The translations under genes were made by a program, and so were the position numbers. A DNA stretch of 37,812 nt from Candidatus Faecousia excrementigallinarum (GTDB lineage: Bacteria > Bacillota > Clostridia > Oscillospirales > Oscillospiraceae), in NCBI GenBank assembly GCA_018713285.1, contig DVFK01000022.1, positions 1 to 37,812 of the forward strand, given 5' to 3'. The notes under the pieces were generated by a model. The model saw nothing but the letters and a program-made list of their open reading frames with translations. It ran no database searches and was not told where the DNA came from. This document shows, piece by piece, positions 23,778-25,413 of this stretch (position 1 is the stretch's first letter; each line of letters begins with the position of its first letter).

Positions 23778-23843
23778 AAAGGCTCCCTTGCAAAAGGGAG
23801 CTGACAGGTTGTAAGCCGTGGCTGAGGGATTCACGGCAGGCAC
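23778..23843 (+). repeat. Left arm of a dispersed inverted repeat
   Basis: The arm begins AAAGGCTCCC and forms an 8-bp hairpin, GCTCCCTT-GCAA-AAGGGAGC (23782-23801), with a GNRA-type loop. A variable segment follows, then CTGAGGGATTCACGG. The same elements occur inverted at 23921-23939 joined to 25370-25413, where the second arm was split by the IS110 element. Its high structure and intergenic location are typical of dispersed bacterial palindromic repeats. Confidence 0.85.
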
Positions 23844-23920: not shown

Positions 23921-23939
23921 GTGCGTACCGTGAATCCCT
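23921..23939 (-). repeat. Inner part of the right repeat arm, left of the IS110 insertion
   Basis: These 19 bases are the reverse complement of 23825-23843 with two mismatches. The arm breaks off after CCCT and resumes at 25370 as CTCAGTCGCC beyond the IS110 element. Confidence 0.85.
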
Positions 23940-23941
23940 TG

Positions 23942-23947
23942 TATAAT
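23942..23947 (+). promoter_or_regulatory. -10 half of the circle-junction promoter (IS110 left end)
   Basis: TATAAT preceded by TG, two bases inside the left end. It lacks a -35 partner in the integrated form but would lie 17 bp from TTGACT of the right end after circularisation. Confidence 0.75.
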
Positions 23948-23953
23948 AAGAGA

Positions 23954-24172
23954 GGCGAAAAAAGTGAATAAGTGGTGTATACTCAAGTAAGCGTTGTGGA
24001 GTGGATTGAATCCCTTACAGCTGCTTGCAGACTGGTTGACTGAGGCTACACCCACAACGTCTTGCTTGAGAGTTAATGAGTTGGATAACGCTTGGACGTT
24101 TGATATCTATCAAGGTTACTACGCAAGGCGAATGTGGAATCACAACGCAAGTCACGAAATGAGGTATGCATC
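23954..24172 (+). ncRNA. Candidate bridge RNA of the IS110 element
   Basis: About 220 bases of structured non-coding sequence between the junction -10 box and the transposase start. A long stem (23982-23999 with 24052-24070; one bulge and one wobble) encloses a loop holding TGAATCCCT (24007-24015), identical to the left target, and GACTGAG (24038-24044), the reverse complement of the right target CTCAGTC. Both guides include the CT core, matching the target-binding loop of characterised IS110 bridge RNAs. A second structured part (about 24079-24130, with TTGATA/TATCAA) is the likely donor-binding loop; AGTTGG (24079-24084) equals the right element end at 25363-25368. The 5' end is inferred from the -10 box and the 3' end is approximate. 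Confidence 0.82.
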
Positions 24173-25354
24173 ATGATCTATGTGGGAATCGACATCGCTT
24201 CGGAAAAGCATGACTGCTGCATTCTGGGGGAACACAACAAAAAATTGGAATCCTTTTCCTTTTCCAACACCAGGGACGGCTTCATATCCCTCCTGGCCGC
24301 CTGCAAGAAATACGCAGAACCGGAACAAACAAAGATCGGGCTGGAAAGCACCGGCATTTACGGCGACAATCTGCGTGATTTTCTCAGGCGTAATGGGTAT
24401 GAAATTCGCACCTTCAATCCCCTGCTCATTAAAAAGAGCATGCAAGCAACCACTCTAAGAAAAACAAAAACAGATAAGTCCGACGCCAGTTTCCTGGCAT
24501 CCTACCTTGCACGGGAGCTTCCAGACCCCGATCCGCAGATATCATACCACATCTCGGAGCTAAAGTCACTAACCAGAGCAAGATTTTCTGTGGTAGGAGC
24601 CTGCTCCAAGGCGAAAACTCAGCTGAAAGCACTGCTTGTGCAGGTATTTCCGGAATTTCACACCGCTTTTTCGGATGTATTTGGCGTAGCTGCCATTGCC
24701 ATCCTGCGGAAATATCCCACGGCAAAGAAGCTCTCTGCTGCCAAGAAGACGGCTGTTGCCAAAATCCTTTCGGAGGCCTCCAGACACCGCCTGGGGGAGG
24801 AGAAGGCTGCCATGCTCATAGATTTGGCGAAGAACTCTGTAGGCTGCCATTCGGAAACCAAGGCGCTGGAAATGCAATACTACCTTGACCAGATAGAATT
24901 GAACACAGCCTATATCCGGCGATATGAGGCGGCCATCCGGGAGATTATGAATGAGATAGATTCTCCCATTACCACCATTCCGGGAATCGGTCTGGTGCTG
25001 GGAGCCATGATTCTGGCGGAGCTGGGGGATGTGACAAGGTTTGCAACCCCGGAGAAAGTCCTGGCCTTTGCCGGCCTTGACCCCAGCATATACCAGTCCG
25101 GCAAGTACACCCCGGCCTCCGGCACCATGGTCAAGCGAGGCTCCCCCCAGCTACGCTGGGCCCTCCTCATGGCCGCCAGAAGCACCATTGTCCACAATCC
25201 CAATATCGCCATCTACTACCAAAAGAAGCTCTCTGAAGGGAAACATTACAACGTGATTTGTTCTCATATTGCCAAGAAATTGGTGAGAATCCTTTATTCC
25301 CTTTTGAAAAAGAATACACCTTATTCACTTTTTTATCCGCAAATTTCTGCTTGA
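24173..25354 (+). CDS. IS110-family transposase (DEDD recombinase)
   Basis: A 393-aa recombinase. The N-terminal RuvC-like domain carries the DEDD set: D7 (GIDIASEKHD), E58 (GLESTGIYG), D101 and D104 (TDKSD). A coiled middle region is followed by the C-terminal Tnp_20 domain, with a helix-hairpin-helix-like TIPGIGLVLGAMI and the likely catalytic S309 in YQSGKY. Spacing agrees well with characterised IS110 recombinases, so the protein looks intact. The ATG at 24173 follows GAGG; the frame extends 13 codons upstream without a ribosome binding site. The enzyme works with the RNA encoded just upstream. Confidence 0.96.
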   Translation: MIYVGIDIASEKHDCCILGEHNKKLESFSFSNTRDGFISLLAACKKYAEPEQTKIGLESTGIYGDNLRDFLRRNGYEIRTFNPLLIKKSMQATTLRKTKTDKSDASFLASYLARELPDPDPQISYHISELKSLTRARFSVVGACSKAKTQLKALLVQVFPEFHTAFSDVFGVAAIAILRKYPTAKKLSAAKKTAVAKILSEASRHRLGEEKAAMLIDLAKNSVGCHSETKALEMQYYLDQIELNTAYIRRYEAAIREIMNEIDSPITTIPGIGLVLGAMILAELGDVTRFATPEKVLAFAGLDPSIYQSGKYTPASGTMVKRGSPQLRWALLMAARSTIVHNPNIAIYYQKKLSEGKHYNVICSHIAKKLVRILYSLLKKNTPYSLFYPQISA

Positions 25355-25356
25355 CT
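25351..25356 (+). promoter_or_regulatory. -35 half of the circle-junction promoter (IS110 right end)
   Basis: TTGACT near the right end, pointing outward. Spacing to the left-end TATAAT in a joined circle is 15 + 2 = 17 bp. Confidence 0.75.
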
Positions 25357-25369
25357 TGTTATAGTTGGT

Positions 25370-25413
25370 CTCAGTCGCCTTCGGCGCCAGCTCCCTTTTG
25401 CAAGGGAGCCTTT
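25370..25413 (-). repeat. Outer part of the right repeat arm, right of the IS110 insertion
   Basis: On the minus strand it reads AAAGGCTCCC..., with the hairpin GCTCCCTT-GCAA-AAGGGAGC (25409-25390) and a second small stem CGCC/GGCG, ending ACTGAG. It continues the arm broken at 23939. The hairpin may also help end transcripts from the gene at 25465. Nothing further was seen between 25414 and 25464. Confidence 0.85.

Follow-up and report, generated by a model that had tools for sequence, protein, structure and literature searches.

A predicted bridge RNA in an IS110-group insertion sequence of a gut clostridium matches the dispersed repeat that the element occupies, and many relatives appear set to ribosome-binding sites

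REP elements are high-copy extragenic palindromes that often occur together with a RAYT transposase. Bridge RNAs and the insertion of IS110 elements into REPs are already known (PMC11208160, PMC11187229, PMC1525189; see also PMC11208158). According to the passages on IS621, an IS110-group element of E. coli (Durrant et al. 2024, PMC11208160), an RNA encoded in the left non-coding end (LE) has a target loop before a donor loop, the left target guide (LTG) pairs with the bottom strand and the right target guide (RTG) with the top strand, all guides include a CT core, a sigma-70 promoter forms at the circle junction, and the target is a dispersed palindromic repeat, a REP. The right guide is given there as 4 bp in the wild type and 7 bp when extended. 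The abstract of Tobes and Pareja (2006, PMC1525189) reports specific insertion into high-copy palindromic repeats (REPs) for ISPpu9/ISPpu10, ISPsy8, ISPa11 and ISRm19/22 of Pseudomonas and Sinorhizobium, and it speaks of transposases and mentions no guide RNA. In the passages on IS1111/IS110 elements (Siddiquee et al. 2024, PMC11187229), a seekRNA from a non-coding region selects the target; its region is mainly upstream of the transposase gene in IS110-type elements, whereas IS1111 elements have the RNA downstream and subterminal inverted repeats, with seekRNAs of 70-100 nt.

The element described here lies in a stretch of 37,812 nucleotides that was analysed as a whole (the window), from the genome of Candidatus Faecousia excrementigallinarum. 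It resembles IS621 in a predicted LE-encoded RNA with the target loop before the donor loop, in the pairing predicted for the two target guides, in the CT core of all guides, in a predicted junction promoter and in insertion into a dispersed palindromic repeat, here a REP-like one. It differs from IS621 in that the recombinases are distantly alike, the right non-coding end (RE) has only 15 bases, the right guide has 7 nt, and the exact target stretch occurs in 3 of 400 genomes drawn from the family. The elements of Tobes and Pareja share the specific insertion into a high-copy palindromic repeat but belong to other hosts and use other repeats. The seekRNA elements share the predicted choice of target by an RNA from a non-coding region, which in the window lies upstream of the gene, unlike that of IS1111.

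Positions 23940-25369 are an IS110-group insertion sequence that combines a bridge-RNA region in its left end with a DEDD/Ser recombinase. The 1430 bases between the two CT cores contain a single recombinase gene (24173-25354; this and the following features are on the forward strand), with a long LE of 233 bases upstream (23940-24172), which encodes the predicted bridge RNA, and a short RE of 15 bases (25355-25369). This is the IS110-group layout, and the IS1111-group trait of an RNA region in a long right end is absent. The recombinase of 393 amino acids matches the DEDD RuvC-like family PF01548 (2.6e-37) and the transposase family PF02371 (7.1e-26), both above the curated cut-offs. Its alignment to the IS621 recombinase has an E value of 1e-22 with best stretches of 47.6 and 34.5 bits, and D7, E58, D101, D104 and the serine S309 of a YQSG motif are all present. 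These we take to be the active-site and catalytic residues. The protein can also be aligned to the other solved relative, the IS110-type recombinase of ISCro4 (PDB 9t56), which was compared at the level of protein sequence.

The element separates a left target half, TGAATCCCT (23931-23939, core CT at 23938-23939), from a right target half, CTCAGTC (25370-25376, core CT at 25370-25371). The corresponding locus in a second genome of this genus (G134, locus L133) is an empty site, where 347 of 348 bases are identical to the joined flanks of the window, including both target halves, and a single CT replaces the two that border the element. The empty site with its single CT defines the element boundaries and identifies a scarless insertion at a dinucleotide core. 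The genome G001 also has the gene of the left flank (94%), but its fetched stretch lacks both the joined flanks and the target and was not used as an empty site. In the window genome, several copies have the same flanking bases, which might suggest that the two repeat halves are ends of the element and not a pre-existing target. This reading is refuted by the G134 locus, which has the repeat and lacks the element. It also disagrees with the right flanks of the copies, which diverge past the repeat, and with a 14-base stretch spanning both halves, TGAATCCCTCAGTC, that occurs uninterrupted 32 times in the window genome (22 of the 32 were read), against none for a reversed-pattern control. Its probability is negligible.

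In the window genome (G000), a search for the element gave one complete copy, four partial copies located at the ends of contigs, and a single diverged match (L006). Three of the partial copies are right ends (C69, C104 and C58), each followed by CTCAGTC and then by differing stretches of the same repeat. The fourth is a left end (C33) with the flank GTAATCCCT, which agrees with the guide at 7 of 9 bases and has its two mismatches at the far end of the guide. Only one side of each of these four is visible. Since C33 and one of the right ends may be the two sides of a single copy, the minimum number of insertions in the genome is four. Candidatus Faecousia excrementipullorum has a copy with 99.5% identity (L033), which sits at TGAATCCCT|CAGTC in different flanking DNA. 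The right flank is CTCAGTC in all five same-guide copies where it is seen. Copies with these guides at unrelated sequences would have spoken against the original prediction; those found sit in the same repeat, the left flank of C33 being the imperfect one. A relative with 82% identity (L035) occupies an imperfect site, TAATTCCT|CTCGGTC, in a genome that lacks the exact target stretch. A DNA search across the genus detected the element in 2 of 136 genomes, scoring at most two candidates per genome, a procedure by which short end fragments may be missed. The same two genomes also contain a second IS110 (L027 and L028) next to another palindrome, GGGGGGAACAA..TTGTTCCCCCC; the RTG of L027, TTCTTAAG, matches its right flank CTTAAGAA, and L028, which has an internal TGA, shows no match on the right.

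The exact stretch TGAATCCCTCAGTC occurs 80 times in G001 and 14 times in G134, in addition to the 32 occurrences in the window genome, and it is absent from the other 397 of the 400 genomes drawn from the family. In the window, the rest of the repeat (25372-25410) consists of CAGTC, a short hairpin and CCAGCTCCCTTTTGCAAGGGAGCC. Reading of 22 exact sites in 20 fetched stretches showed that 20 of them continue, after a short variable stretch, into the palindrome CCAGCTCCC...GGGAGCC. The exceptions are L085, which diverges before CCAGCTCCC, and L087, which is cut off by the end of a contig. Judged by its letters, the target is a REP-like dispersed palindromic repeat that is lineage-specific. Rfam searches with 7 of the 20 fetched loci gave nothing above threshold, and three sub-threshold matches were regarded as chance. 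An unoccupied near-target, TGAATCCCTCAGCC, with one mismatch in the right half, lies on the reverse strand at 23820-23833, about 100 bases left of the insertion and within a second repeat unit.

The original prediction had proposed that a bridge RNA in the LE carries both halves of this target as guides. Its two matches are exact: the LTG TGAATCCCT at 24007-24015 is identical over 9 bases to the left flank 23931-23939, and the RTG GACTGAG at 24038-24044 is the reverse complement of the 7 bases CTCAGTC at 25370-25376. The layout is also as proposed, with the LTG equal to the top strand on the left, the RTG complementary to the top strand on the right and the CT core in both. The two matches might be coincidental, and the 7-mer by itself is found in 669 of 20,000 dinucleotide shuffles of 23954-24172 (3%). 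The 9-mer by itself is found in 5, and no shuffle among the 20,000 has the two together with correct order and spacing, which agrees with the claim that the pair is hard to obtain by chance. Chance is refuted by covariation, since relatives with other guides show the same relation, and it retains next to no probability.

For the study of covariation, relatives were gathered from the genus (136 genomes), one Siminovitchia record, the family (400) and the order (394), and loci were fetched for the best-matching relatives only. There were 56 loci with at least 38% identity, from which two duplicates of L033 and nine loci without a target loop were removed, leaving 45 parsed loci; 13 rows below 38% were not used and L031 was outside the filtered set. 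One row was kept for each distinct guide pair, giving 33 rows per permutation test, and L042 was omitted from the left test. Guides were cut out by pattern because a MAFFT alignment fails to bring the guide columns of the window clade into register with those of the other elements. Only segments with the CT core and a closing motif could be cut out in this way, and the core was therefore omitted from all scores.

The LTG agrees with its own left flank at a mean of 6.12 of 10 positions, compared with 3.87 after permutation (z 10.2), and the RTG agrees with its own right flank at 4.09 of 5, compared with 2.21 (z 11.0); neither value was reached in 100,000 permutations, which take no account of relatedness among the elements. 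Identity is raised at positions 3-9 from the junction on the left and up to position 7 on the right, and is near background further out. These extents imply family-wide guide lengths of 9 and 7 including the core, equal to the numbers of the original prediction. Taken singly, 17 of 33 left guides and 18 of 33 right guides score best or equal best with their own flank (strictly best in 6 and 9), a modest ranking that reflects the similar targets of many relatives. The LTG of L062 and L037 matches the left flank only with a one-base shift, and matches are poor for L063 and L072 on the left and for L034, L010 and L011 on the right. A class-level test with 8 and 6 distinct guides was weaker than the main set, 5 of 100,000 permutations on the left and 853 of 100,000 on the right reaching the observed value. 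Within the window clade (the window element, L033, L035 and L036) the guides predict the targets GACTGAGGGATTCA, GACTGAGGGATTAG and CCCGTAGGGAGGAA.

Recognition of the target by protein alone is the rule in most other families of insertion sequences. The bridge RNA of the window is a prediction from sequence, and the recombinase itself might read the repeat, with the matches in the LE being chance or captured target DNA without function. This is very improbable, because across 33 distinct elements the left and the right guide each vary together with their flank, the signal extending to base 9 (left) and base 7 (right) and no further. In addition, a conserved stem places the two guide segments in a single loop, and the donor guides covary as well. 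The alternative of an element RNA-programmed for a genomic repeat, as originally proposed, is supported by the covariation of guide with target and of donor guide with element end. This covariation, of which the donor part had not been considered in the original prediction, makes the bridge-RNA reading far stronger than a single coincidence would.

The predicted bridge RNA comprises about 177 nt (23954-24130), both ends being inferred from the fold and from the length by analogy with IS621. The stem proposed to close the target loop has the arms CTCAAGTAAGCGTTGTGG (23982-23999) and CCACAACGTCTTGCTTGAG (24052-24070), and it folds as claimed. The arm 23980-24073 forms one long stem with a large internal loop, the guides being in or beside the loop, and a small hairpin cap (hairpin region 24017-24036). 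Its energy is -37.9 kcal/mol and changes to -37.7 when both guides are forced to be unpaired. The same arm also forms within 23954-24130, and in the ensemble of that segment the guide bases are partly open, with unpaired probabilities from 0.17 to 0.94. A consensus fold of 33 left ends has 26 pairs, 10 of which are kept in at least one row with both sides changed. It would have counted against the guides if a conserved fold placed them outside a loop; the consensus keeps both inside, and every column between the arms of the target stem is unpaired. The whole 219-nt segment 23954-24172 is no more stable than its shuffles (z -0.90, with 36 of 200 at least as stable) and its minimum-energy structure differs from the arm fold, and the folding energy of the whole segment was dropped as evidence because of this z value. 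Rfam gave no above-threshold match in the LE region and one sub-threshold IRE_I outside the element.

The donor loop shows a corresponding relation to the ends of the element. The left donor guide (LDG) AGTTGG at 24079-24084 matches the left donor AGTTGG in the RE (25363-25368), and the right donor guide (RDG) region (24105-24114) contains the anchor CAAG (24111-24114), complementary to the core and LE start CTTG. In the window element, pairing of the RDG is assigned over CAAG. Both LDG and left donor were found in 45 of 54 rows, and in 43 of these the last four LDG bases are the same as those of the left donor, with GG, AG and AA states; L063 and L056 are the exceptions. The RDG base that faces the first LE base agrees with the right donor in 42 of 42 rows (37 T:A and 5 C:G), under a pattern that admitted only A or G at this base. 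Among the donor rows, a single element can be represented by several copies. When placed on the tree of the recombinases, the combination of a C right donor with an AG left donor needs four changes, or three when only well-supported branches are counted. Both predicted donor guides thus covary with the element ends. A hairpin in the donor loop of the consensus fold (24087-24100, AACG/CGTT) keeps two of its four pairs through two-sided changes, in 5 and 1 of the 33 rows. When right end, core and left end are joined as in an excised circle, a -35 box TTGACT (25351-25356, near the right end and overlapping the stop codon) comes to lie 17 bases from a -10 box TATAAT (23942-23947), a promoter predicted from sequence only.

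The best explanation, which we regard as almost certain, is an IS110-group insertion sequence with a bridge RNA encoded in the LE, whose target loop reads the repeat and whose donor loop reads the circle junction. The LTG would pair with the bottom strand of TGAATCCCT and the RTG with the top strand of CTCAGTC, in both cases including the core CT, and the donor loop would pair with the circle junction of the element itself. With this RNA, the recombinase would recombine the circle into the repeat at CT, and no bases would be lost. The scarless insertion site, the covariation of guides with target and donor, the placement of the guides in a loop and the conserved recombinase can all be read from the DNA. 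Transcription from the junction promoter, an RNA-protein complex and RNA-directed strand exchange would follow by analogy with IS621.

Many relatives appear to be set to ribosome-binding sites, which was unexpected. In these sister elements, which are about 40% identical, the left flank read on the other strand contains AGGAG, a spacer and ATG in many rows. Examples are L010, L011, L013, L032, L038, L040, L046, L047, L054 and L060, among others, and in most sister elements the side of the junction that faces the gene retains AGGAG or a similar sequence. The statistical test scored only the position of the start codon and not AGGAG itself, a site passing when an ATG lies 9-17 bases from the first A of AGG and opens a reading frame of at least 60 codons. 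A first sample comprised 36 sister-clade sites, of which 34 had 250 or more bases of flank and were evaluable. With ATG, 21 of 34 pass, and 25 of 34 with any start codon. Controls from both strands of the same flanking DNA pass in 271 of 6618 cases for any position (4.1%), 53 of 1054 for AGG (5.0%) and 12 of 78 for AGGAG (15.4%), and some of the AGGAG control hits are probably true ribosome-binding sites. The binomial P is 3e-19 against AGG and 1e-9 against AGGAG, with sites treated as independent. The offsets of the start codon peak at 12 and 13 with seven rows each, and the majority reading of 33 joined empty sites is GAAAGGAG(A/G).

An independent sample was taken from 26 class-level loci that had not been used in forming the idea, the own-genome locus L097 being omitted. 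Four had no left end and two had too little flank, and of the 20 evaluable loci 13 pass. The corresponding controls pass in 30 of 425 cases for AGG (7.1%; P 5e-11) and in 4 of 33 for AGGAG (P 4e-8). Ten open reading frames were chosen from 34 that pass with ATG, and each of the ten has one or more Pfam matches at 1e-5 or better: GcvT, DHDPS, PurD, ABC, TetR, MazE/AbrB-like, DUF1653, MFS, a PucR-like regulator and fumarase. The guides give the same picture when the flanks are ignored, 26 of 38 distinct sister guide pairs encoding AAAGG, 21 AGGAG and 16 AAAGGAG. Elements that share one guide also occupy several such sites within a genome, as in G1055 (4 of 4 copies), G208 (3 of 4) and G559 (3 of 4 with ATG, and all 4 when any start codon is allowed).

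Homing of the sister clade to ribosome-binding sites is strongly supported as a prediction. The sister LTG most often ends in CUCCU and the RTG in GAAAG, so that guides and core would spell an anti-Shine-Dalgarno sequence. The elements would home to AAAGGAG-spacer-ATG with AGGAG staying with the downstream gene, and the first LE base, usually T, would restore the A of AAGGAG. Some sister elements look as if they are aimed elsewhere, namely L027/L028 beside their palindrome and three copies in G1024 (L103, L116 and L120). The latter have the left flank ACACCCACCT, equal to the LTG, and right flanks that differ from the RTG, and all three fail the start-codon test, which suggests another repeat as target or a later change. 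It is likely that the wider clostridial IS110 lineage is RNA-programmed for ribosome-binding sites and the window clade would then be a branch reprogrammed to a dispersed repeat. Among the titles and opening parts of abstracts listed for this subject in the open-licence literature, none reports an IS110 element targeting Shine-Dalgarno sequences or ribosome-binding sites, and the passages from PMC11208160 and PMC11187229 are silent on such targeting.

The window element represents a clean natural example of a predicted RNA-programmed element in a gut clostridium. With an empty site, several copies that share its guides and covariation of all four guides, it could serve directly as a bridge-recombinase ortholog. 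As the sister clade suggests, a bridge RNA may target a functional signal in front of many genes instead of a repeat of the lineage. If this is true, ribosome-binding sites would offer a transposon many landing sites outside coding sequence. Guides aimed at a repeat and guides aimed at ribosome-binding sites on related recombinases make the evolution of guide change testable.

Single loci show further peculiarities. The left flank of L042 equals the start of the LE of another copy up to and including the LTG of that copy, as if the element had entered the guide DNA of a sibling and the remainder had then been lost by recombination. In L048, L055, L056 and L068 the right end closes with TCA and not TCT, perhaps with a different core, and the right flank of L048, CACCTCAAAG, matches the segment TTTGAGGTG of its own left end.
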